DNA of 64,000 nucleotides, from assembly GCF_016863115.1 (NCBI RefSeq), contig NZ_BOOG01000026.1, forward strand, positions 1 to 64,000, in the 5' to 3' direction. This stretch comes from Sphaerimonospora thailandensis (lineage in GTDB: Bacteria; Actinomycetota; Actinomycetes; Streptosporangiales; Streptosporangiaceae). How positions within the stretch are numbered: the first letter of the stretch is position 1; each line of letters begins with the position of its first letter. Of this stretch, positions 18,474-30,129 are shown piece by piece. Under the pieces are notes generated by a model that did no database searches, was not told the DNA's origin, and saw nothing but the letters and a program-made list of their open reading frames with translations. The position numbers and the translations under genes are program-made.

Positions 18474-20053
18474 ATGTGCTGCCCGATGGCAGGCCGCTGC
18501 TGGACGACGTCTCGTTCCGGATCGGGGAGGGTGTCAAGGCCGCCCTCGTCGGCCCCAACGGAGCGGGCAAGACGACGCTGATCCGTCTGATCTCCGGTGA
18601 TCTCCAGCCGGTCGAGGGCTCGGTGGCGCACTCCGGCGGTCTCGGCGTGATGCGCCAGTTCATCGGCGGAATCCGCGACGGCAGCACGGTCCACGACCTG
18701 CTGCTCGGGGTCGCGCCCACGCGGGTGCGGGAGGCCGCGGCCCGGCTCCACGACGCCGAGCTCGCGATGATGGAGCGCGACGACGAGAAGACCCAGATGC
18801 GGTACGCCCAGGCGATCACCGACTACACCGACGCCGGCGGCTACGACGCCGAGGTGCTCTGGGACGCCTGTACGGTCGCCGCCCTCGGCCTGCCGTACGA
18901 CAAGGTGAAATACCGTGACGTGGGGACGCTCTCGGGGGGTGAGCAGAAGCGGCTCGTGCTGGAGGCGCTGCTGCGCGGGCCGGATCAGACCCTGCTGCTC
19001 GACGAGCCGGACAACTACCTCGACGTGCCGGGCAAGCTCTGGCTGGAGCAGGCGCTGCGGGAGACCCCGAAGACGGTCCTGCTCGTCTCCCACGACAGGC
19101 AGCTCCTGGCCAACGCGGCGGACCGGATCGTCACCGTCGAGTCCGGGAACATCTGGGTCCACGGCGGCGGATTCGCTACGTACGCCGAGGCCCGGAGGGA
19201 ACGCAACGAGCGGCTCGACGAGCTGCGCCGCCGCTGGGACGAGGAGCACGCCAAGCTCAGGCGCCTGGTGAACATGCTCAAACAGAAGGCGCGCTACAAC
19301 GACGGCATGGCCCCGGCCTATCACGCGGCGCAGACGCGTCTGCGCAGGTTCGAGGAGGCGGGGCCGCCCGAGCTCGCGCCCAAGGACCAGCTCATCAGCA
19401 TGCGCCTGCACGGCGGCCGCACCGGCAAACGCGCCATCATCTGCGAGAACCTCGAACTCAGCGGCCTGATGAAGCCGTTCGATCTGGAAGTCTGGTATGG
19501 CGAGCGCGTCGCCGTACTCGGCTCCAACGGGTCGGGCAAGTCCCACTTCCTGCGGCTGCTCTCGGGCGAGGAGATCCGGCACACCGGGGCGGCCCGGCTC
19601 GGCGCAAGGGTCGTTCCCGGGCATTTCGCTCAGACGCATGCCCGTCCTGAGCTGTTCGGGCGTACGCCGTGCGAGATCGTGATGACCGAGCACGCCCGGC
19701 TCAGGAACGAGGCGATGAAGGCCCTGGCCCGTTACGAACTGGCCGGACGGGTCGCCGACCAGCGGTTCGAGACGCTGTCGGGAGGTCAGCAGGCCAGGCT
19801 GCAGATCCTGCTGCTCGAGCTGTCCGGCGCCACGCTGCTGCTGCTCGACGAGCCGACCGACAACCTCGACCTGGCCAGCGCGGAGGCGCTTCAGGAAGGC
19901 CTGGACTCCTTCGACGGCACCGTGCTGGCGGTGACCCACGACCGATGGTTCGCCGCCGATTTCGACCGTTACCTGGTCTTCGGCGCCGACGGGCGGGTCT
20001 ACGAATCGCCCGAGCCGGTCTGGGACGAACGTAGGGTCGCCCGCCCGAGATAG
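18443..20053 (+). CDS. ABC-F family ATP-binding protein
   Basis: A 536-residue soluble tandem ATPase without membrane segments. Domain 1 has Walker A GPNGAGKTT (37-45), signature LSGGEQKRL and Walker B LLLDEPDNYLD. Domain 2 has Walker A GSNGSGKS (~360), signature LSGGQQARL and Walker B LLLDEPTDNLD. They are joined by a charged helical linker (ARRERNERLDELRRRWDEEH and onward). ABC-F proteins act on the ribosome, either in translation control or in protection from antibiotics; which applies here cannot be told from motifs. The GTG at 18443 follows AGGAG by 6 bases, and this exact start region is duplicated 1.8 kb upstream. Confidence 0.88.
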   Translation: MGHVEVGHLTHVLPDGRPLLDDVSFRIGEGVKAALVGPNGAGKTTLIRLISGDLQPVEGSVAHSGGLGVMRQFIGGIRDGSTVHDLLLGVAPTRVREAAARLHDAELAMMERDDEKTQMRYAQAITDYTDAGGYDAEVLWDACTVAALGLPYDKVKYRDVGTLSGGEQKRLVLEALLRGPDQTLLLDEPDNYLDVPGKLWLEQALRETPKTVLLVSHDRQLLANAADRIVTVESGNIWVHGGGFATYAEARRERNERLDELRRRWDEEHAKLRRLVNMLKQKARYNDGMAPAYHAAQTRLRRFEEAGPPELAPKDQLISMRLHGGRTGKRAIICENLELSGLMKPFDLEVWYGERVAVLGSNGSGKSHFLRLLSGEEIRHTGAARLGARVVPGHFAQTHARPELFGRTPCEIVMTEHARLRNEAMKALARYELAGRVADQRFETLSGGQQARLQILLLELSGATLLLLDEPTDNLDLASAEALQEGLDSFDGTVLAVTHDRWFAADFDRYLVFGADGRVYESPEPVWDERRVARPR

Positions 20054-20168
20054 CGATGCCGGGCCGGGAACGCCCGTCGGAAACAGCCAGGTGAAAGCCC
20101 GTAAAGATACCGTACGGCCTGCGCGTGTCCGAGGCCTCGCCGCCCGTTTCAGGGGTTATGACGTCTAA

Positions 20169-20966
20169 GTGACTCGACGTAGCCGAATGACGATCGCCCT
20201 CGCTCTCGCCCTAGCCGGCCTGGCGCCGGCGGCGTGCGGCGAAGACAAGCAGGCGGATATCCGGCCGCTCGTCCTCAAGGAGCAGGTCTCCTCCATCGCG
20301 AAGTCCGGCGCCGGCTATGTGGTGAGCTGGGCGGGCGTGCTCAGCAACGCCAACCGCTGGCACTTCGGGGAGCACGCGATCGCGACCGTCACCGCTGTGG
20401 ACGCGGCGGGCAAGCAGGTCGCCCACCTGGAGCAACCGCTGGACGCGGTGCCACCGGGGAGGTCCGTGGCGTTCAGCGGCCAGACGACGGCCACCGGGCA
20501 GCCGGTCCGGGTGAAGATCGAATGCGGCCACGCGACCTGGCATCTCGTTCCGCGCATTCCGTCGGCCTTCCTGACGTTCCCGATCTCCGATGTCGTCACC
20601 GAACGGCTGCACGAGGGCAGCTATCTGATCACGGGCTACGTGCTCGATCCCTTCCTCAAGGCGGCGAGCGGCGTCGCGGTGACGGCCCTGTTGAGAGACG
20701 CCGCGGGCAAGCTGGCCGGGGGCGGCACCGCCTACCTCGAGAAGGTCCAGTCGAACCTCAAACGCCGCTTCGTGATCACGATCGACGGTGTGACCGGCGG
20801 CACGGTCGCCAAGACCGACGTGCGTGCCAGGACGTGGGGGACGACCGCCAAGCCGTACATCGACCTGGCCCTCGCCGGGGCGGTTCCGATCCACACCGTC
20901 GCGCCGAGCACCAAGCCGTTCGACAAGGACCGCGGCTATCAGGTGCTCGCCGATCGGCGGCAGTGA
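20169..20966 (+). CDS. Putative secreted lipoprotein of unknown function
   Basis: A 265-residue exported protein. The N-terminus MTRRSRMTIALALALAGLAP is a signal peptide, and C23 (APAAC) is a probable lipidation site although Pro at -3 is atypical. The body has two beta-rich halves, each like an Ig or FxLYD-type fold: VSWAGVLSNANRWHFGEHAI in the first and LITGYVLDPFLKAAS in the second. No catalytic motif is apparent. Two starts are possible, GTG 20169 and ATG 20187; the later one leaves a shorter, cleaner signal. The gene is followed 84 bp downstream by a reductase gene on the same strand. Confidence 0.7.
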   Translation: MTRRSRMTIALALALAGLAPAACGEDKQADIRPLVLKEQVSSIAKSGAGYVVSWAGVLSNANRWHFGEHAIATVTAVDAAGKQVAHLEQPLDAVPPGRSVAFSGQTTATGQPVRVKIECGHATWHLVPRIPSAFLTFPISDVVTERLHEGSYLITGYVLDPFLKAASGVAVTALLRDAAGKLAGGGTAYLEKVQSNLKRRFVITIDGVTGGTVAKTDVRARTWGTTAKPYIDLALAGAVPIHTVAPSTKPFDKDRGYQVLADRRQ

Positions 20967-21049
20967 GCGGCGCGCGGCGAGCAGCGGATCACGGGCGGGG
21001 ACCGGCGCCACCACCGGCACCGGCAGCCGGGGCAGGTTACCGTGAGGGC

Positions 21050-22150
21050 ATGAGAACCCCGAGGATCGTGCTCTTCGGAGCCACCGGGTTCACCGGCCGG
21101 CTCGCGGCGGCGGCGCTGATCGCGCGCGGAGCCCGGCCGCTGCTCGTGGGGCGCGACCCCGCCAGACTGGATGCCTTCGCCGCGTCTCTGCCGGTCCGGC
21201 CGCCGACGGCGGTCGCCGACGTGAGCCGCCCGGAGTCGGTTCGCAGAACCGTCGGCCCGGGTGACGTGCTGATCTCGGCGGTCGGACCGTTCATGCGCTG
21301 GGGGGAGGCGGCGGTCGCGGCGGCGACCGAGGCGGGCGCCGTCTACCTGGACACCGCGGGCGAGCCCCCGTTCATCAAGCGGATCTTCCAGCGGTACGGC
21401 CCGGCCGCCGGCGCGGGCGGCGCCACACTGATCACCGCCTTCGGATACGACTACGTGCCCGGCAACCTGGCCGCGGCCCTGGCTCTGCACAAGGCGGGCT
21501 CCGAGGCCGTGCGGGTGGACATCGGCTACTTCGTGCGCGGCGACCTGGCCGCCCGCCTCAGCCCCGGCACGCGCGCCTCCGCGCTCGGCGTCCTTCTCGA
21601 TCCGATGTACGGCTTCCGCGAGGGCCGCATCGTCCGAGAACACGGCCGCACCCGTGCCTTCGTCGTCGGGGGACGCCGGCGGTACGGCATGGCCGTGGGG
21701 ACCTCGGAGCACTTCGCGCTGCCGCCGGCCCATCCCGGCCTGCGTGAAGTCAACGTCTACCTCGGCTGGCTGGGCAGGTTGACCCGGGCCGCGGGGACGC
21801 TGGCCCGGGCGACTCCGGTGCTCGCCGCCATGCCGGGCGCCAGGCGGGTGACGGACGCGTTGGTCGATCGGGTCATCCGCTCGGGGCGGCCACCCGGCCA
21901 CGCCGCGCCGGCGGTCTCCTCCCAGATCGTCGCGGAGGCGTACGACGCGAGAGGGCGCCTGCTCGCCGCCGTGGAGCTCAACGGAGGAGACCCGTACGAC
22001 TTCACCGCGCGGATCCTGGCCTGGGGCGCGACCACCGCACTCGCCGAGGGCGTACGAGGCACGGGCGCACTCGGCCCGGTGGACGCCTTCGGTCTTGAGG
22101 CGCTCACCCGGGGGTGTGCGGAGGCCGGGCTCGGGGCGGAGACTCGCTGA
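21050..22150 (+). CDS. Saccharopine dehydrogenase-like NAD(P)-binding protein
   Basis: A 366-residue protein with an N-terminal Rossmann fold (IVLFGATGFTGRL, 6-18) of the saccharopine dehydrogenase / trans-acting enoyl reductase group. Typical features are GDVLISAVGPFMRWG, the small-residue turn AGAVYLDTAGEPPF and TAFGYDYVPGNLA. Relatives reduce or isomerise lipid or polyketide intermediates in actinomycetes; the substrate here is unknown. A TACCGT box (21038-21043) ends 6 bases before the ATG with no Shine-Dalgarno, so the mRNA may be leaderless. The long frame open from 20234 is an antiphase extension and is rejected. Confidence 0.8.
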   Translation: MRTPRIVLFGATGFTGRLAAAALIARGARPLLVGRDPARLDAFAASLPVRPPTAVADVSRPESVRRTVGPGDVLISAVGPFMRWGEAAVAAATEAGAVYLDTAGEPPFIKRIFQRYGPAAGAGGATLITAFGYDYVPGNLAAALALHKAGSEAVRVDIGYFVRGDLAARLSPGTRASALGVLLDPMYGFREGRIVREHGRTRAFVVGGRRRYGMAVGTSEHFALPPAHPGLREVNVYLGWLGRLTRAAGTLARATPVLAAMPGARRVTDALVDRVIRSGRPPGHAAPAVSSQIVAEAYDARGRLLAAVELNGGDPYDFTARILAWGATTALAEGVRGTGALGPVDAFGLEALTRGCAEAGLGAETR

Positions 22151-22334
22151 GGCGCTATGTGCGGGATTTGCCCGATCAATACTGATTTTTACCGCTAGTT
22201 AAACAAATAAATCCCTGAACCGGCAAATAAGTAGACAATTTTGGTGGGGAGATCGGGGGTGATTTCACCGCGTTCTGGGCGCGCTTCGGGGAAAGGGTAG
22301 AGCGGGTAGTTACCGAGCATTTACTCTGAGTTAT

Positions 22335-24416
22335 ATGAATGATGGCGTCCTGGTCGAGGCGTTGCGTGCACGCGATCCGGGTGCTCTCGCCGCGCTCTAT
22401 GACATGTATGCGGAGAGCATCTACCGATACTGCCGGATGATGCTGGACGGTCCCGACAACGCCCAGGTCGCGTTAAGAGACACTTTGATCGCCGCCGAGG
22501 CCCTCGTCGGTTCGCTGACGGACCACGAGTCGTTCCGGCCGTGGTTGTACGCCCTGGCGCGCGGGGAGTGCCTGCGCCGCAGGACACCGGGTACGTCGCC
22601 GGACGACCGGACCCGTAACGGCGATCAGGCGAGCGATCAGGCGAGTGATCCGGGGGCCGCGCCGAGCACGATGCCGTTCGGCGTCACGCCGTTCCACGCC
22701 GCGCAGTTCCAAACGGGACAGTTCGGTACAGGAAAGTTCGCGGCAGTGCCGTACGGTACTGCCGACGTCACCGGCCCGGTGGGTTCCACCGACGCGGTGG
22801 CGGCCGATCTGCGGGTGGTGGCCCAGGGCGCCGTGTCCGCGCTGGCGTCGGAGTACCGCGAGGTTCTCGAGTTGACCACGCGGCACGACCTGTCGACGGC
22901 CGAGGTGGCGACTATGTTCGGCACCGGCCAGCGTTATGTGGAGGGATTGCGTGAGTCGGCGGCCGACCGGCTGCGCGACGCGATCACGGCCGAGATCCTC
23001 GCGAGGAAGAACGCGACCGGCTGCGATCGGGCCGACAAGATGCTCGAGGGGTTCTCCGGTCGGCTCACCTCTCAGACGCGCCAGCGGTTGATCAAGCATC
23101 TGGCGCGGTGCGAAAGCTGTTCCAGGCACCGGATCCGCCAGGTCTCTCCGGCCAAGGTCTTCGCTCAACTACCCGAGACCGCCCTGCCCGACACGCTGCG
23201 CGTCCGGGTGCTGAGCTGCTTCGTCGATCCCGAGCTCGTTCCCTATCGGCGGTTCGTCGCGAAACGGGTGGGTGCGCTCGATCCGTCGGGTTTTCCCAGG
23301 GCGGGCACCCGGCGGGAGGGTCGGTTGGCGCAGGCGGTGGCTGGGGCGGTGGCCACGATAGCGGCCGCGGCGGCGATCGCCCTGGTCTTCGCACAGTTCT
23401 CCGGTGACATCACGGATTCGGCCACCGGGGGCATCGCGCGGCGGTGGCCCGTCGCCGGCGGGGTCGTCGGCCAGACGCCGGGTACGCCGGGTACGCCGGG
23501 GCCTGACAGCACCTCGGAGGGCGCCGACGCCCGCGCCCAGCATCCGCCTCAGCCCGAGCCCGAGTCTCAGCCCGGCCACTACGACCTGGCCGAGCCGGTG
23601 ATCCCAGTGATCCCGGCCGGCCCGGTTCCGCTGCCGGCTCCCGCGCCCCGCCCGGCTCCGCCTCCATCCGAACCCCCACACCCGTCACCCCCACACTCAT
23701 CTCACCCACGCTCGCCGCGACCGGCGCCGAACCCGTCCGCGGAGCCGTCCGGCCCGGAGCCGATGCCGCCAGGCGAGGAGCCGGAGGACATTCCCCCGAG
23801 TGACACCGGGTCCACTCCATCGCCCAAGCCGCCCTCCGGGTTCCCGTCCGAAGGCCCCCCACCACACCGGCCCGGTCACAGGCCACCGCCGCACCGTCCA
23901 GGACCCTGGCCGGGCGGTCACCATCCCGGACCCTGGCCGGATCACGGTCACTGGCCGGGCCGCGATCACCAGCACCACCGTTGGCCGCATAAGGACTGGG
24001 ACGAGACGCCCCGGCCGACGGTGCGACCTTCACCCACTCCGACGTCCCCGCCGAGTAGCGCCATGCCGCGGACCCCTTCGGCCCGGCCGTACCCGCCCGG
24101 TTCGCGCCGCTGGTTCCGCTACGGCGGGAGCAGAGCGGACCGCTACGGCGGGGGCAGAGCGGACCGGGCCGGGACGGTGAAAACCGGAGCAGCGAGCGGA
24201 GCGCGGGACGAGCGGCGGGTGCCGCGGGCGGAGCGTTCCGCGTCTTCCGCGTCTTCCGCGTCTTCCGCGTCTTCCGCGTCTTCCGCGTCATCCGAGCCCT
24301 CCGCGCCGAGCGGGAGGCCGACACCGGAACCCGAGCCAGGGCCGGCCCCGCCGCCTGCACCGCAGATCACCCCGCAGGCCGAGGCGCGGCCGACGCCGCA
24401 GCCGTCATCTTCCTGA
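22335..24416 (+). CDS. Membrane-tethered ECF-like sigma factor with internal zinc domain and Pro-rich exterior
   Basis: A 693-residue protein with four parts. Residues ~1-85 are sigma region 2 (LRARDPGALAALYDMYAESI, then RPWLYALARGECLRRR). A variable linker with repeats follows, then region 4 (~165-215, ALASEYREVLELTTRHDLS, then VATMFGTGQRYVEGL). Residues ~230-270 carry HLARCESC, the Hx3Cx2C pattern of a ZAS anti-sigma zinc domain. A single hydrophobic helix (~333-355) and then ~340 residues of Pro/Ser/Gly/His-rich, presumably extracytoplasmic, sequence follow. One polypeptide thus appears to hold sigma factor, inhibitory domain, membrane anchor and wall-spanning sensor. Related long actinobacterial ECF proteins are known. 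The upstream 180 bp is AT-rich and contains TTTACTCTGAGTTAT right at the ATG. Confidence 0.8.
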   Translation: MNDGVLVEALRARDPGALAALYDMYAESIYRYCRMMLDGPDNAQVALRDTLIAAEALVGSLTDHESFRPWLYALARGECLRRRTPGTSPDDRTRNGDQASDQASDPGAAPSTMPFGVTPFHAAQFQTGQFGTGKFAAVPYGTADVTGPVGSTDAVAADLRVVAQGAVSALASEYREVLELTTRHDLSTAEVATMFGTGQRYVEGLRESAADRLRDAITAEILARKNATGCDRADKMLEGFSGRLTSQTRQRLIKHLARCESCSRHRIRQVSPAKVFAQLPETALPDTLRVRVLSCFVDPELVPYRRFVAKRVGALDPSGFPRAGTRREGRLAQAVAGAVATIAAAAAIALVFAQFSGDITDSATGGIARRWPVAGGVVGQTPGTPGTPGPDSTSEGADARAQHPPQPEPESQPGHYDLAEPVIPVIPAGPVPLPAPAPRPAPPPSEPPHPSPPHSSHPRSPRPAPNPSAEPSGPEPMPPGEEPEDIPPSDTGSTPSPKPPSGFPSEGPPPHRPGHRPPPHRPGPWPGGHHPGPWPDHGHWPGRDHQHHRWPHKDWDETPRPTVRPSPTPTSPPSSAMPRTPSARPYPPGSRRWFRYGGSRADRYGGGRADRAGTVKTGAASGARDERRVPRAERSASSASSASSASSASSASSEPSAPSGRPTPEPEPGPAPPPAPQITPQAEARPTPQPSSS
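24241..24294 (+). repeat. 9-bp tandem repeat in the sigma-factor C-terminus
   Basis: CGTCTTCCG is repeated five times perfectly and once with a change (CGTCATCCG), encoding an Ala-Ser-Ser-like run in the extracytoplasmic tail. Being in frame, copy-number change would alter tail length only. Confidence 0.9.
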
Positions 24417-24480
24417 TGGCCCGGCTGTCCCGGTCGATTTCGCCGCTGTACTTATCGGGACGATCTCCTACATATGGCGA

Positions 24481-24519
24481 TTACTCTATGTACTCAAGAT
24501 GTGTACGCAGAGTAATCAC
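24481..24519. promoter_or_regulatory. Inverted repeat upstream of the NlpC/P60 gene
   Basis: GATTACTCT (24481-24489) and AGAGTAATC (24511-24519) are perfect inverted arms, with a second pair of GTAC blocks inside. It lies 38 bases before the ATG in an AT-rich patch. The half-site TTACTCT also occurs at the start of the upstream sigma gene (near 22321). It may be an operator or a leader stem-loop. Confidence 0.5.
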
Positions 24520-24557
24520 AGGGAACTTGGGGGAGTGGACGCACGGAAGGGGTAGTA

Positions 24558-25748
24558 ATGCCACTCCTCAGAGCATCGGGGCTCGTCGCTGGACTGGGAA
24601 CGGGCCTGGTCCTGACCCTGGGCGGCGCGGCCGGCGCGGATCCGAGACCGTCCGCCGAAGATGTGGCGAAGGCCCGGGCGACCGCCCAGGAGCGAGCCCA
24701 CGAACTGGACAAGGTGGGAGCCGACCTGGTCGCGGCGCGGGCCCGTCAGGACGATCTGGCACAGGACGCCGAAGGGCTCGTCGAGGCGTACAACGGTGAG
24801 CTCGTCCGGCTTGAGGCGATAAAGGCGAGCTATGAGCAGGCGACACGGCGGCTGCGCGGCGCGGCCGATCAGGTCCGGGAGGCCCGCGCCGCGGTCGCTG
24901 CCGAGGCGACGGCGAGTTACGGGGGCGTGAGTTATGGGGCGCTGGACCTCTCCGTGCCGGGTGTCCTCGTCGAGGGCCTGGGCGACATCGGGGATCTGCT
25001 GCAGCGGGCCAGCCTGCTGACGCATATGTCGGACGCACGAGTCGCCACCCTGGAGCGGCTGCGCGACACCCTGCGGGTTCACGAGATTCTCCGCGCCCAG
25101 GCCGCCCAGGCGTACACCGCGCAGCTTCGCGCGACCGAGCGGGTACGGCTGGCCAGGGACACGGCGCAGGAGGCCGTGGACCGGCAGATGGAGACGACTC
25201 GGCGGATCGAACAGGAGAAACGGGAGCTGTCCCGGCGTCTCGAGGCCGCCCGTTCTCGGGTCGACGAGCTGAGACGCGCCAAACGGGAGCCGCGGCGACA
25301 TCCGGCGCGAGAACCCTCGGCGGCCGGCCGTCGCGGAGGCAGGAACAAGATTCTGGCGTGGGTCGGCCGCCTGGGAGCGGGCCGGGGCGGGCTCGCCGCC
25401 CAATGGGCGCTCAAACAGCTCGGCAAACCGTACGTCTGGGCGGCCGACGGGCCCTCGGGCTTCGACTGCTCAGGACTGACCATGAGAGCCTGGCAGCGGG
25501 CGGGGGTCTCACTCGACCACTGGACCGGCACCCAGTGGACGTCGGGACGCCATGTGTCGCTGAAGAACCTGCGCACCGGGGATCTGGTGTTCTACGGCAG
25601 TTTGAGCCGAGATCCGGGCACCATCCGTCACGTGGGGATCTACATCGGGCGAGGACTGATGGTCCACGCCCCCCGGACGGGGGACGTGGTACGCATCTCA
25701 CCAATCTGGCGGCACGATCTGGTGGGCGCCACCAGGCCCGACACCTGA
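24558..25748 (+). CDS. Secreted NlpC/P60 peptidoglycan endopeptidase (RipA-like)
   Basis: A 396-residue exported wall hydrolase. A signal peptide (~1-27, ending GAAGA) is followed by long coiled-coil segments (~30-245) that usually keep such enzymes inactive or tie them to a partner. A basic linker and the NlpC/P60 domain (~278-396) come next. The catalytic residues are C304 (GFDCSGLT), H358 (IRHVGIYIG) and the following His in MVHAPRTG. The enzyme cleaves the D-Glu to diamino-acid bond of stem peptides. GAAGGGG precedes the ATG. It lies directly downstream of the tethered sigma-factor gene and is an obvious candidate target of it, though this is inference. Confidence 0.87.
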   Translation: MPLLRASGLVAGLGTGLVLTLGGAAGADPRPSAEDVAKARATAQERAHELDKVGADLVAARARQDDLAQDAEGLVEAYNGELVRLEAIKASYEQATRRLRGAADQVREARAAVAAEATASYGGVSYGALDLSVPGVLVEGLGDIGDLLQRASLLTHMSDARVATLERLRDTLRVHEILRAQAAQAYTAQLRATERVRLARDTAQEAVDRQMETTRRIEQEKRELSRRLEAARSRVDELRRAKREPRRHPAREPSAAGRRGGRNKILAWVGRLGAGRGGLAAQWALKQLGKPYVWAADGPSGFDCSGLTMRAWQRAGVSLDHWTGTQWTSGRHVSLKNLRTGDLVFYGSLSRDPGTIRHVGIYIGRGLMVHAPRTGDVVRISPIWRHDLVGATRPDT

Positions 25749-25789
25749 CCCGCCGCCCGACCTACCGCCTGACCTGTGGGACGGTCGGC

Positions 25790-26293
25790 TCAGTGCTCCT
25801 CGGCGATTCCCTCTTCTTCCTCGCACCGCTTGAAAGACGCGATGATCTCGGCCTCGGCCTCCGTCCGGCCGACCCAGTTGGCGCCCTCGACGGACTTGCC
25901 GGGCTCCAGGTCCTTGTAGACCTCGAAGAAGTGCTGGATCTCCAGCCGATCGAACTCGGCGACATGGTGGATGTCGCGGATGTGCTCCATGCGAGGGTCC
26001 GTGGCCGGGACGCACAGCACCTTGTCGTCGCCGCCCTTCTCGTCGGTCATGCGGAACATGCCCACCGCGCGGCAGCTGATCAGGCAGCCGGGGAAGGTCG
26101 GCTCCGAGAGCAGCACCAGCGCGTCAAGCGGATCTCCGTCCTCACCCAGCGTGTTCTCTATGAAGCCATAGTCCGCGGGGTACTGGGTCGACGTGAAGAG
26201 CAGGCGATCCAACCGGATGCGGCCAGTCTTGTGGTCCACTTCGTACTTGTTCCGTTGTCCTTTGGGAATCTCCACGACAACGTCGAACTCCAC
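25790..26293 (-). CDS. ppa: Inorganic pyrophosphatase
   Basis: A 167-residue soluble family I pyrophosphatase, which hydrolyses pyrophosphate to pull biosynthetic reactions forward. The family signature is complete: [13 protein letters not shown], the metal-binding [10 protein letters not shown], and [16 protein letters not shown] near the C-terminus. GGAGG (minus strand) is 5 bases before the ATG. The gene is convergent with the NlpC/P60 gene and divergent from dacB, an arrangement I recall as conserved in actinobacteria. Confidence 0.96.
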
Positions 26294-26379
26294 TGGTTCC
26301 TCCGCTCAAGCCCCCGGTGTCCCGGGTGGGCATTAATGTCTCGTAGGCGTGGTTCCGGTCGGCGCGAAATGAGGGTCTC

Positions 26380-27897
26380 GTGGTACTGCGACGTGAGCGG
26401 TGGATGGTGTTGGCCACCCTCGCCCTGCTGCAGATCTTCGTCGTCGTCGCGGGTGTCTATGGCTACGTGGTCATCCATGACGCCACCCGGACGCCGGCCC
26501 CGATCGCGTCCCCGGAACCGACCCCCACCCCCATCATCACCGCCGGCCCGGTTCTGGCCGCGGCTGGGGACGGGGTCCTTCCCGCCAAGGGTACTTTGAC
26601 CTCCCGATTGCGTGGCGCGATGGGTGCCCCGGGACTGGGCAGGAACGTGGCGGGGATCGTTCTCGACGCCAGGACCGGGGAGACGCTCTTCGACGGCCGT
26701 TCGACGGCGCCGACCACGCCGGCCTCGACGACCAAGGTCGTCACCGCGTTGGCCGTGCTGGCCGCGGTGGGGCCCGACGCCCGGTTCGCGACGCGAGTCG
26801 TCCAGGGCGAGGCGAAGAACTCGATCGTCCTGGTCGGGGGTGGGGACCCCACCCTCGCGGGTCTCCGAGGTACGGGGAAGGGCGGCTATCCACGTCCGGC
26901 CTCCCTCGCCCAGCTCGCCTCGCGTACGGCCAAGGCGCTCAAAGCGGCCCGGACCACCCGGGTGACCCTGTCGTACGACGCGTCCCTGTTCGCCGGTCCG
27001 CGGTTGGCGCCCGGCTGGAAGCCGAACTACATCCCGGAGGGCAGCGTGGCGCCGGTCGCCGCGCTCACGATGGACGAGGGCCGGACGGCCGGCGGCGGGC
27101 TGCTGGCCGACCCCCCGCGGGAAACCGCCGCCGCCTTCGCCGCGCTGCTGCGGCGCAACGGCGTCAAGGTCGGCGACAAGATCGCGCCCGCCGACGCGCC
27201 CCCCACCGACCAGGTGGTCAGCGGCTCGCCCGGCACGGACGCGTCGAACGCCGACGGGCAGGACGGTGCCGCGCAGAACGGTGTCGGGCAGAACAGGGCC
27301 GGGCAGAACAGGGCCGGGCAGGGAGCTGGGGCGCGAGTCGGTCAGGAACTCGCACGGGTGGAGTCGCCGCCGGTCTACGCCCTGGTCGAACGCATGCTCA
27401 CACTCAGTGACAACGATCTCGCCGAGGCGCTGGCCCGTCAGGTGGCGGTGCAGGAGGGCACGCCGCACACCTTCACGGGAGCCACGGACGCGATCCACCG
27501 GGTGCTGGCCCGACTGAAGCTGGACGAGGGCGTCGAGGTCCATGACGGCAGTGGCCTGTCCACGCGCAACCGCATCACTCCGGCCGCCCTGGGCCGCCTG
27601 CTGGCGGCCGCCGCCTCTCCCGCCAACCCGGCGCTGCACTCGTTGATCAGTGGACTGCCCGTCGCCGGGTTCACCGGCACCCTGCACGGCAGGTACGGAA
27701 AATCCGACTCCGCGGCCGGCGCCGGATTGGTCCGCGCGAAGACGGGGACGCTCAACGGGGTGAACACCCTCGCGGGCATCTCGTACACGACCAACGGGCG
27801 ACTGGTGACGTTCGCGTTCATGGCGGACGAGGTGGCCGATGCGCACGGGGCGATAGTCGCGCTCGACAAGATGGCCACGATCGTCTCCCAGAGTTGA
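26380..27897 (+). CDS. dacB: D-alanyl-D-alanine carboxypeptidase / endopeptidase (PBP4 type)
   Basis: A 505-residue penicillin-binding protein of the DacB family, removing terminal D-Ala from, or cutting cross-links in, peptidoglycan. An N-terminal membrane anchor (~10-30) is followed by the three active-site motifs: S116-T-T-K119 (PASTTKVV), S343-D-N345 and K454-T-G. A family insertion region (~280-320) holds a Gln/Asn/Gly run encoded by two perfect copies of a 15-bp unit (27286-27315). GAGGG lies 5 bases before the GTG start. An 11-bp hairpin follows the stop. Confidence 0.9.
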   Translation: MVLRRERWMVLATLALLQIFVVVAGVYGYVVIHDATRTPAPIASPEPTPTPIITAGPVLAAAGDGVLPAKGTLTSRLRGAMGAPGLGRNVAGIVLDARTGETLFDGRSTAPTTPASTTKVVTALAVLAAVGPDARFATRVVQGEAKNSIVLVGGGDPTLAGLRGTGKGGYPRPASLAQLASRTAKALKAARTTRVTLSYDASLFAGPRLAPGWKPNYIPEGSVAPVAALTMDEGRTAGGGLLADPPRETAAAFAALLRRNGVKVGDKIAPADAPPTDQVVSGSPGTDASNADGQDGAAQNGVGQNRAGQNRAGQGAGARVGQELARVESPPVYALVERMLTLSDNDLAEALARQVAVQEGTPHTFTGATDAIHRVLARLKLDEGVEVHDGSGLSTRNRITPAALGRLLAAAASPANPALHSLISGLPVAGFTGTLHGRYGKSDSAAGAGLVRAKTGTLNGVNTLAGISYTTNGRLVTFAFMADEVADAHGAIVALDKMATIVSQS

Positions 27898-27898
27898 T

Positions 27899-27930
27899 TC
27901 CGCGTTCCCTTCGCGCGGCGGGAACGCGGA
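27899..27930 (+). terminator. dacB terminator hairpin
   Basis: TCCGCGTTCCC (27899-27909) pairs perfectly with 27920-27930 across a 10-base loop. It begins inside the 3' flank of dacB and ends 5 bases before the -10 box of the next gene. Confidence 0.65.
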
Positions 27931-27935
27931 GAACG

Positions 27936-27941
27936 TACGGT
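27936..27941 (+). promoter_or_regulatory. Putative -10 box of a leaderless transcript
   Basis: TACGGT ends 7 bases before the ATG at 27949, and no Shine-Dalgarno is present. Confidence 0.45.
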
Positions 27942-27948
27942 GGTGGGT

Positions 27949-28998
27949 ATGCAGGTGATCGACTGGGATCTGGCCGTCGCGACCGGAGTTCGCCTCGTGC
28001 GCCCCGGGCCACAGGTGAGCCGTGAGGAGGCCAGGCAGGCGGTCGCCGACCTGCGGCGGCTGTCGCGGGACGCGGAAGGACACGTGCGGGAGTTCACCCG
28101 CCTCGACTCGGCGCCGCCCGAGGCGGCGACGATCGTGGACCGACCCGGCTGGATCAGAGCCAACGTGGACGGGTTCCGCGTGGTGCTGGAGCCGCTCACC
28201 GAGAAGATGTCGAGCATGCCGGCGATCGTGGGCGCGGTCGGGTCTCGCATCACCGGGCTCGAGGTGGGCGCCGTGCTGGCATTCCTGGCCTCCCGGGTGC
28301 TGGGGCAGTACGAGCTGTTCCTCCCGCCCGACCCCGGCGGGGTCGCCCCGGCGGGACGTCTGACGCTGGTCGCGCCCAACATCGTGCACGCCGAGCGCGA
28401 ACTCGCCGTCGATCCGCGCGACTTCCGCCTGTGGGTGTGCCTGCACGAGGAGACCCACCGGGTCCAGTTCACCGGAGTGCCGTGGCTGAGGGAATACGTC
28501 CGGGGCCAGATGACCGAGTTCCTGCTGGCCTCCGAGATGGATCTCACGACCCTGCTGGAGCGGCTTCGGGCGGCCTCGGACGCGGTCGCCGACGCTTTCA
28601 GAGGTGGGGACGGCAACCTGATCGAGGCCATCCAGACCCCTGAGCAGCGGGCCGTCCTCGACCGGGTCACCGCGGTGATGACGCTGGTGGAGGGGCACGG
28701 CGACTACGTGATGGACGCGGTGGGACCGTCGGTGGTGCCGTCCGTCGCCGAGATCAGGGCCAAGTTCCAGCGCCGCCGGGAGGGCGGATCACGCATGGAC
28801 CAGCTCGTCCGGCGGCTGCTGGGCATCGAGCTCAAGATGAAGCAGTACGCCGAAGGCTCCAGGTTCGTCCGGACCGTGGTCGAGGAGGCCGGGATGGACG
28901 GGTTCAACCGGGTCTGGACCTCGCCCGAGACGCTTCCCGATCGCGACGAGATCGCCGACCCCAACGCCTGGATGTCCCGCGTCCTCACCGGGGTGTGA
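27949..28998 (+). CDS. Zinc-metalloprotease-like DUF2342 protein
   Basis: A 349-residue protein of the actinobacterial DUF2342 family, sometimes annotated as a coenzyme F420 biosynthesis-associated or zinc-dependent metalloprotease. The metal motif is H166-E-E-T-H170 (VCLHEETHRVQF), followed by LLASEMD and, further on, LVEGHGDYVMD, which would supply the third ligand. No signal or membrane helix is seen. ATG 27949 is chosen because MQVIDWDLAVATG matches the family start as I recall it and a -10 box sits 7 bases upstream. It precedes tilS by 36 bp. Confidence 0.82.
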   Translation: MQVIDWDLAVATGVRLVRPGPQVSREEARQAVADLRRLSRDAEGHVREFTRLDSAPPEAATIVDRPGWIRANVDGFRVVLEPLTEKMSSMPAIVGAVGSRITGLEVGAVLAFLASRVLGQYELFLPPDPGGVAPAGRLTLVAPNIVHAERELAVDPRDFRLWVCLHEETHRVQFTGVPWLREYVRGQMTEFLLASEMDLTTLLERLRAASDAVADAFRGGDGNLIEAIQTPEQRAVLDRVTAVMTLVEGHGDYVMDAVGPSVVPSVAEIRAKFQRRREGGSRMDQLVRRLLGIELKMKQYAEGSRFVRTVVEEAGMDGFNRVWTSPETLPDRDEIADPNAWMSRVLTGV

Positions 28999-29034
28999 CT
29001 TCCGACCGGAGATCACCGCGGGAGAATGGGAGGC

Positions 29035-30129
29035 ATGGGTCCGCATCCCGCCGTGGCCGACGTGCGACGTGCCGTACGGCTGTGCCTCGCCGATCTGTCG
29101 AACCGTAAGCCCGGCAAGTCGGGCAAGTCCGGTAAGTCCGGTAAGTCCGATGAGCGGGGGCAGGGTCCGCTTGTGCTGGTCGCGTGCAGCGGCGGGGCCG
29201 ACTCGCTCGCGCTCGCCGCTGCCCTCGGATTCTGTGCGCCGCGTCTCGGCCTGCGCGCCGGGCTGCTGACCGTCGATCACGGTCTCCAGGAGGGTTCGGC
29301 CGAGCGGGCCCGGGAGGTCGTACGGCTCGCGCCCGCGCTCGGCCTGGAGTCCGCCGAAGCTCTGACCGTCGTCGTGGGCGGGGCCGGTGGCCCGGAGGCT
29401 GCGGCGCGTGAGGCGCGCTACGAGGCGTTGTCGCGGGCTGCGCGGCGCCTCGATGCGGCGGTCGTACTGCTCGGCCATACGCTGGACGACCAGGCCGAGA
29501 CCGTGCTCCTGCGATTGGCTCGCGGTAGCGGCACCCGATCGCTGGCCGGCATGCCGGAAATTTCCGGCATCTATCGCCGCCCGCTGCTGGGTCTCGCCCG
29601 GGTGAGAACCAGGCAGGCGTGCGCCGCGCTGGGCCTGTCGCCCTGGGATGATCCGCACAACGCCGACCCCGCGTACACCAGGCCGAGGGTCAGGCACGAG
29701 GTCCTGCCGGTGCTCGAGGCCGCGCTGGGGCCGGGCGTCACCGAGGCGCTCGCCCGTACGGCACGGCTCTGCCGGGACGACGCGGACGCCCTGGACGAGT
29801 GGGCCGGCGACGTCTACGTCAAGTCGCTGGAGGCGGGCGGCGGGGCGGCGGGTGTCGGGGAGGCGGGTGTCGGGGAGGTGGATGGCGGACTGTCGGCGGC
29901 CGTGCTGGCGGAGGCGCCCGCGGCCGTCCGGCGGCGGGTCCTGCGGCGGGCGGCCGTGGCCGCCGGGTCCTCGGCGTCGGCGCTGGCGGCCGTCCACATC
30001 GAGGAGGTGGATCGTCTGGTGACGGGCTGGCACGGTCAGAAGGGGGTCGACCTGCCCGGCGGGATCGGAGTGGTCCGGCGCTATGGCACCCTGTACTTCG
30101 TCGGGAAGCTCGTCGACAACCTCGCGTAA
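29035..30129 (+). CDS. tilS: tRNA(Ile)-lysidine synthase
   Basis: A 364-residue PP-loop ATPase that converts cytidine-34 of the CAU-anticodon tRNA-Ile to lysidine, allowing AUA decoding. The PP-loop is S52-GGADSLALA. The next family blocks are VDHGLQEGS and [21 protein letters not shown], then [20 protein letters not shown]. Between the N-terminal helix and the PP-loop a [11 protein letters not shown] run is encoded by four 9-bp tandem units (29113-29148). GAGAAT ends 7 bases before ATG 29035; an in-frame ATG at 29026 is possible. It is followed 12 bp later by hpt. Confidence 0.92.
29113..29148 (+). repeat. 9-bp tandem repeat in tilS
   Basis: Four units of GGCAAGTCC-type sequence encode Gly-Lys-Ser repeats in a loop ahead of the PP-loop. 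Confidence 0.85.

Follow-up and report, generated by a model that had tools for sequence, protein, structure and literature searches.

A 64,000-nucleotide stretch of the genome of the soil actinobacterium Sphaerimonospora thailandensis (contig NZ_BOOG01000026.1, positions 1 to 64,000; the whole stretch is referred to as the window) contains a fused, sigma factor-like gene whose product we interpret, with a confidence that we put at about even, as a membrane-tethered sigma-like signalling protein of ECF52-like descent (ECF, extracytoplasmic function), which would act as a mimic or adaptor and would mainly no longer serve as a promoter-specifying sigma factor. The main reason for preferring such a protein over a releasable sigma factor is that its most constrained parts are the parts that a reduced clade of its orthologues has kept. 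In the product, sigma regions 2 and 4 precede a zinc anti-sigma-like domain with four ligands, a single transmembrane helix follows, and a Pro/Ser/His-rich tail of ~337 residues completes the chain; the source genome is that of a close relative of Sphaerimonospora mesophila, with 80% identity across the cytoplasmic part of the fused protein. The gene and its parts are as follows:

22335-24416, + strand: open reading frame of the fused sigma-like protein, 693 residues, ATG start.
22335..22586, + strand: sigma region 2-like domain, residues 1-84; VALRDT replaces D-x-V-Q-E-T; Pfam Sigma70_r2 20.3 bits (cut-off 24); PDB profile matches to SigW and SigL.
22587..22799, + strand: variable linker, residues 85-155; 45% identical to the S. 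mesophila sequence; none of its 71 columns reaches 90% conservation.
22800..23000, + strand: sigma region 4-like domain, residues 156-222; Sigma70_r4_2 17.5 bits (cut-off 25.7); inside the PDB profile matches; recognition helix without net positive charge.
23001..23159, + strand: zinc anti-sigma-like domain, residues 223-275; zf-HC2 18.5 bits (cut-off 22.2); ligands C230, H255, C259 and C262.
23160..23321, + strand: juxtamembrane segment, residues 276-329; KVF..LP..LRVRVLS.F.DPEL..YR..VA.R....D..GFP; kept in region-2-only orthologues.
23322..23402, + strand: transmembrane helix, residues 330-356; hydropathy peak 2.37; N-terminal flank basic.
23403..24413, + strand: Pro/Ser/Gly/His-rich, probably extracytoplasmic tail, residues 357-693; no Pfam domain.

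At the level of sequence profiles, the homology of the fused protein with ECF sigma factors is secure. A profile of 40 orthologues, defined as the rows in which both sigma regions and the zinc motif are present (the window counted among them), matches the PDB entries of SigW (8e-12) and SigL (4e-10) across regions 2 to 4. These 40 rows include one without transmembrane helix and tail (L022), one cut by the end of its contig (L088) and one outside the conserved locus (L018, L047), and omit the duplicates L080, L059, L060 and L057. Taken alone, the window protein falls below the Pfam cut-offs for all three domains, its region 2 match is the weakest among the genome's 34 (24.8 bits in the genome-wide scan), and it misses the cut-off of the NCBIfam sigma70-ECF model TIGR02937 (30.4 versus 42.9 bits); with a Pfam threshold of E <=0.01, region 2 is recognised in 37 of the 40 orthologues, zf-HC2 in 27 and Sigma70_r4_2 in 24. 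The first-pass annotation of this gene had placed sigma regions 2 and 4, a zinc domain, a membrane helix and a tail of ~340 residues in one frame, all of which are confirmed (337 tail residues by count), while its description lacked the fast-evolving linker of ~71 residues between regions 2 and 4. An AlphaFold2 model built from 2 sequences (mean predicted local distance difference test score 36.5) is uninformative, including on the packing of the zinc domain between regions 2 and 4.

The case against promoter reading begins in region 2.2, where an acid and a Gln are the core-contact residues in Escherichia coli sigma-70. It is mainly through region 2.2 that a sigma factor contacts the beta-prime coiled coil of RNA polymerase (PMC4598750). 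Residue 45, Val in the window protein, is acidic in none of the 40 two-region orthologues and in none of 33 orthologues that retain region 2 only, but an acid occupies this position in 33/33 other sigma factors of the genome and in 37/40 other fusions. Residue 48 is Arg in all 40 two-region and all 33 region-2-only orthologues, compared with Gln in 28/33 genome sigma factors and 22/40 other fusions, and Asn at residue 77 (Gly in the window protein) occurs in 0/73 orthologues versus 14/33 genome sigma factors and 18/40 fusions. Averaged over the 40 orthologues, the net charge of the region 4 recognition helix is -0.9, against a mean of +2.4 for 7 relatives; in 6 ECF factors of the genome, a set biased by its selection with a canonical-helix pattern, the charge is +3 to +6. 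Both the 7-relative and the 40-fusion sets contain L021, which belongs to another family, retains the acid and is placed by synteny (as L049) at the window's locus. Nine of the 42 fusion rows were excluded from the tree and residue counts, namely L182, L183, L184, L190 and L193, which belong to the window's group, and the duplicates L164, L202, L204 and L205.

Regions 2 and 4 thus largely lack core- and DNA-contact residues, an outcome that the first-pass annotation had itself named as refuting its interpretation, and with the acid and Gln replaced throughout both orthologue sets, a recognition helix that is not basic and a region 4 that is undetectable in 33/33 reduced loci, the released, promoter-reading sigma factor foreseen by the first-pass annotation is not supported. 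The same replacements, on the core-facing and the -10-facing side alike, the non-basic recognition helix and the loss of region 4 in a clade count against the broader alternative of a working ECF52-like sigma factor, in which the zinc domain would hold regions 2 and 4, a wall signal at the tail would lead to proteolytic release, wall genes such as NlpC/P60 would be switched on, and changes elsewhere would make up for the altered region 2.2. We consider this alternative unlikely, although it has points in its favour: the architecture is that of ECF48, ECF52 and ECF53, for which proteolytic activation is predicted (PMC8999054), a mutant of the ECF52 member SCO4117 shows lower levels of 46 of its 56 affected transcripts (PMC5826349), and the zinc ligands of the window group are intact in 40/40 orthologues.

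Selective constraint is distributed unevenly along the protein. Between the window protein and its S. mesophila counterpart, the ratio of nonsynonymous to synonymous substitution rates (dN/dS) is 0.05 in the juxtamembrane segment, 0.06 in the transmembrane helix and 0.09 in region 2, and rises to 0.18 in region 4, 0.48 in the tail, 0.54 in the zinc domain and 0.73 in the linker. Among the 40 orthologues, 47 of the 84 region 2 columns and 23 of the 54 juxtamembrane columns are conserved at >=90%, the latter segment being 96% identical to that of S. mesophila. These values are relevant to the proposal of a decaying sigma fusion that persists mainly in a membrane or wall-spanning role and whose sigma domains are partnerless relics. 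Weak Pfam scores, the relaxed zinc domain and tail and the domain loss described below would all be expected of such a protein, but the conservation of region 2 would not, and sigma relics should have been lost first, yet the reduced clade retains region 2; we therefore regard the proposal as improbable.

Within one genus, a protein reduced to region 2, the juxtamembrane segment and the transmembrane helix, with the tail gone as well (open frames of 192-337 codons), was matched in 33 of 40 genomes, and the same reduced form occurs in three further genomes (L028-L030); the 33 region-2-only loci counted here comprise 30 retrieved from the one genus together with these three. No region 4 or zinc domain was detected by tblastn in any of the 33 loci with any of five queries, which recovered 21, 21, 21, 21 and 20 of 21 control loci. 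A juxtamembrane query, by comparison, matched 25/33 region-2-only loci and 21/21 controls, and a hydrophobic helix is found in 32/33. The position of the locus is also retained, as the opposite strand carries the inorganic pyrophosphatase gene 390-844 bp downstream in 32/33. In a tree of region 2 (84 columns, with many forks open), 16 region-2-only rows form one branch (support 99 in the Shimodaira-Hasegawa-like approximate likelihood ratio test) within a 38-row group (89) that includes L021, and the simplest reading is a single loss; L031, which is tagged region-2-only in the tree, sits outside the 16-row branch and is excluded from the 33. The region 2 of these proteins is under purifying selection, as judged from dN/dS values of 0.10-0.44 in 14 pairs (those of highest region 2 identity, up to 97%, from 435 pairs, with members shared between pairs).

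The region 2-like domain might instead supply one half of a split or partnered sigma factor, being joined at the membrane by a region 4 from another protein, in the way that RsoA (region 2) and SigO (region 4) form a split sigma factor in Bacillus subtilis and a region-2-only protein is active in transcription initiation (PMC8103513). Few domains of the protein are as constrained as region 2, which fits this arrangement; however, the residues that have changed are the core contacts of region 2.2, and no region 4 of the family's type was found in the 33 region-2-only loci (mostly ~1.5 kb of downstream sequence, in a search blind to a region 4 that is unrelated or distant). Of all the explanations considered, we give this one the least credence.

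Several observations count against our preferred reading of a membrane-tethered mimic or adaptor, the RsoA precedent, in which a protein with region 2 only serves transcription, being one of them. The invariant zinc ligands, and a region 4 that is still constrained at a dN/dS of 0.18, mean that a sigma-like function may persist in the full-length forms. Gln at position 48 is not universal among sigma factors, being absent from 5/33 of those in the genome and from 18/40 fusions, and Asn at position 77 is common yet not general. The orthologue of family f2 at the same locus (L021/L049) retains the acid, in the form EEAVRDT, and from this sequence looks like an intermediate. Within the reduced clade, dN/dS outside region 2 is 0.20-1.14, exceeding 1 in 2 of the 14 pairs, and one member (L103) is frameshifted; furthermore, Pfam Sigma70_r2 matches only 1/33 of the region-2-only proteins at E <=0.01, so that their kinship rests on alignment, synteny and the tree.

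The zinc domain of the full-length forms is defined by the ligands C230...H255-x3-C259-x2-C262, which are invariant in 40/40 two-region orthologues even though zf-HC2 scores remain at 18.5-20.5 bits, below the 22.2 cut-off. The Hx3Cx2C zinc anti-sigma-like domain that had been predicted from the window alone is thereby borne out, with an upstream Cys added to the motif. In one orthologue that has region 4 and the tail motif, L212 (G295), the zinc motif is shifted (HGCDAC), possibly a step towards loss of the zinc domain. The membrane anchor is represented by a single clear hydrophobic stretch at about residues 334-353 (top Kyte-Doolittle value 2.37, next non-overlapping stretch 1.24), which supports the single-pass layout proposed earlier; its N-in/C-out orientation is predicted from the basic flank. 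The frame of another orthologue, L022/L050 (G017), ends soon past the GFP motif of the juxtamembrane segment and before any clear transmembrane helix, reflecting either a frameshift or a soluble form.

The tail is, to judge from its sequence, more than a spacer. Although 26% Pro and 13% Ser in composition and variable in length (124-379 residues in 31 orthologues, window included), it is read in frame, with 280/337 codons aligning with S. mesophila and a proportion of nonsynonymous differences of 0.27 versus 0.45 for synonymous ones. No Pfam family is matched in its 337 residues at E up to 1, and no carbohydrate-binding domain was found there by Pfam. It does contain a motif:

23961..23978, + strand: RDHQHH tail motif in a His/Trp/Pro-rich island; [RH][DE]H[QE] in orthologue tails.

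The pattern [RH][DE]H[QE], often as RDHQHH, is present in 18/31 tails at 114-202 residues into the tail (mean 0.24 and maximum 3 in 500 shufflings), a count to be read with the knowledge that the pattern was picked after the tails had been viewed and that many tail rows are close kin. We infer that the motif may bind metal or the wall. At the RDHQHH site, the tail of orthologue L130 has a long Asp/Glu-His repeat with 19 His in 40 residues. Elsewhere in the window's tail, a tandem gcgtcttcc repeat at 24240-24293 (five copies and a variant) encodes a Ser-Ala-Ser run, and L018, the orthologue outside the conserved locus, has a BACON-like domain.

In the mechanism that we propose, the region 2-like domain would sit at the membrane and, mimicking a sigma factor or serving as an adaptor, engage a partner; candidates are an anti-sigma factor, a second sigma factor and RNA polymerase itself. 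In the full-length forms the zinc domain would clamp regions 2 and 4, and the wall-located Pro/His-rich tail with its RDHQHH island would set whether the partner surface is free, possibly through binding of metal or of a particular wall state, or through proteolysis.

The usual setting of the orthologue group is a sigma–NlpC/P60–ppa locus of the Streptosporangiales; a region 2 query matched 258/297 genomes of the order at E <=1e-12, paralogues included. The two neighbouring genes in the window are:

24558..25748, + strand: NlpC/P60 (RipC-like) wall peptidase, 396 residues; NLPC_P60 84 bits; RipC model 96.7 bits, below its 425 cut-off.
25790..26293, - strand: inorganic pyrophosphatase (ppa), locus marker; adjoins the pair in 29/29 assessable regions.

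We take the gene at 25790..26293 to be ppa, and the genes beyond this convergent neighbour, in most of one locus set, are presumably dacB, a zinc protease and tilS. The wall endopeptidase gene that had been singled out as a plausible target of the fused protein is a conserved neighbour, NlpC/P60 lying 3' of the sigma-like gene in 39/41 assessable two-region loci (10/12, 19/19 and 10/10, the sets of 19 and 10 regions having been picked by hand from the match list and not at random). L047 and L051 lack NlpC, L044 and L131 were not assessable, L056 is a paralogue and L049 is included. In the region-2-only loci NlpC was found in 0/33, within stretches of ~1.5 kb downstream in most cases and without a search of the rest of those genomes. 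This coupling, in which NlpC adjoins most two-region forms and is not seen where region 4 is lost, is a further point in favour of a working sigma factor.

The upstream regions point in the opposite direction. Two conserved elements were delineated:

22296..22334, + strand: conserved promoter block before the sigma-like gene, GGTRGARC-N4-AGTTAC...TTTACNCT; TANNNT -10 element at 22322-22327.
24479..24517, no strand assigned: imperfect palindrome of 39 bp with two 18-bp arms, GATTACTCTATGTACTCA-AGA-TGTGTACGCAGAGTAATC, before the NlpC/P60 gene.

In 39/42 distinct orthologue upstream regions a TANNNT sequence occupies positions -13 to -8, so that 7 bases separate it from the ATG, and 39/42 likewise contain an 11-bp direct repeat (GTTAC-like/TTTAC); in the region-2-only genes, TAGATT stands about as far from the start. 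From the position of the element at 22322-22327 the transcript probably begins at the ATG, which suggests that the sigma-like gene is transcribed, leaderless, by a sigma factor of the housekeeping type. An element so placed would point away from autoregulation and to that extent speaks against a working ECF sigma factor. A sigma-70 consensus scan of 22100-24600 returned no promoter.

A promoter common to the sigma-like and NlpC/P60 genes was considered and rejected. The block of the sigma-like gene has its sole genome match at its own place with up to 3 mismatches, the only genome matches of TGTGTACNNAGAGTAATC with up to 2 mismatches are the two arms of the palindrome, and since each block is thus unique in the genome, sharing is not supported. 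All that they have in common are the short sequence TTACTCT and the letters of a GTNAC half-site. The shared motif suggested earlier for these two genes was therefore not found, in a comparison that involved no de novo motif search and in which a short two-box motif could be missed; the working-sigma alternative would lead one to expect such a block. The gene-proximal arm of the palindrome is recognisable in many relatives, and the element has the appearance of an operator to which a dimeric regulator could bind.

The sequence GTTACC-N5-TTTACT upstream of the sigma-like gene resembles the Streptomyces MtrA consensus, GtnAcC-n5-GTnAcn (PMC13189361, PMC5650626), and control by MtrA is a possible lead. 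Against it, the second half-site overlaps the -10 element, the bare pattern is hardly enriched, with 8 matches in the genome and 5 in a reversed control, and, by eye, the pattern is absent from 9/10 more distant upstream regions. There is no Rfam match in 20000-30000 at E up to 1, and the intergenic stretch before NlpC has a folding z of -1.04.

Fused sigma/anti-sigma proteins are usually taken to be stress sensors made in one piece, from which a sigma factor is set free. The present group suggests that such a fusion can outlive promoter reading, the DNA-binding half being dropped while region 2 is kept along with the juxtamembrane segment and the anchor. If so, the genes of this group that are now called RNA polymerase sigma factors in actinobacteria are not sigma factors, and the reduced form of ~190 residues would be a small membrane-bound sigma mimic, comparable to PhyR but of independent origin. 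Rather more tentatively, and at somewhat less than even confidence, we envisage a pseudo-sigma class in which an ECF region 2 serves as a membrane adaptor or mimic at the Streptosporangiales NlpC/ppa locus, the state of the wall is read through a tail with a His motif, and one clade has been stripped down to region 2, juxtamembrane segment and anchor.

Among known systems, PhyR provides the precedent for a degenerate sigma-like domain and, by analogy, supports a reading as a mimic. Its sigma-like domain, in which the core and promoter contacts are degenerate, is an anti-anti-sigma factor that titrates an anti-sigma factor (PMC8103513). The window group resembles it in having ECF-shaped regions 2 and 4 with changed contacts, the fold of the window protein being predicted from sequence profiles. 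Direct similarity is slight, as Pfam PhyR_sigma2 matches 1/40 orthologues (E 0.0012) and the match to PDB 2lfw is weak (E 0.05). Unlike PhyR, the window protein is membrane-anchored and has its own zinc anti-sigma-like domain, and no receiver domain is present among its Pfam matches or the best 25 of its 32 NCBIfam matches. IutY (ECF243) of Pseudomonas putida is also a sigma domain fused to a membrane anti-sigma part, from which it is freed by Prc and RseP (PMC8999054), but it belongs to a Gram-negative iron system and has a working sigma domain, and neither a zinc domain nor a wall tail is described in the excerpt of that source.

A class-wide search with a relative as query matched 79/394 genomes at E <=1e-15, the matches listed including the window's own group and short frames that are possibly plain ECF factors, and a zinc motif follows region 2 in all 42 fusion loci viewed, some of them duplicates. 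The same genome encodes a second sigma/zinc-finger/transmembrane fusion (contig C78:4800-8000; L163:296-2881, - strand; 862 residues from the ATG), whose region 2.2 acid is intact (EEVLVET, with Val instead of Gln) and which contains a repeat region of Gly, Ser, Gln and Thr as well as a large extracytoplasmic portion in which Pfam matches nothing. Among the Streptomyces-like fusions L197-L199, the tail of L197 matches Pfam CAP (PF00188, E 5e-23) and that of L199 is similar by eye. No paper on the locus or on membrane-tethered region 2-only proteins was found among the matches listed, in a search that mostly left out subscription journals.

The closest counterparts are the ECF48, ECF52 and ECF53 groups, all sigma/zinc finger/transmembrane fusions (PMC8999054). 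ECF48 and ECF53, compared here by description, share with the window protein a C-terminal fusion that brings in a zinc finger together with one or two transmembrane helices. ECF52, whose member SCO4117 controls development in Streptomyces coelicolor (PMC5826349), is likewise actinobacterial and shares regions 2 and 4, the zinc finger, a single transmembrane helix and a Pro-rich extracytoplasmic part. The one-chain sensor and regulator that headed the first-pass annotation is therefore not novel as an architecture. The carbohydrate-binding domain of ECF52, in contrast, has no Pfam counterpart in the window protein. Eight Streptomyces-like fusions (family f20, none of them shown to be orthologous to SCO4117, which is outside the set) form a separate branch (97) in the 84-column region 2 tree and keep DDVVQ[ED]TM in 8/8, whereas region 2.2 is replaced in the window group. 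Orthologues reduced to region 2 are, in addition, a trait of the window group that ECF52 does not share, and what is unusual is the orthologue group itself, not the fused architecture.

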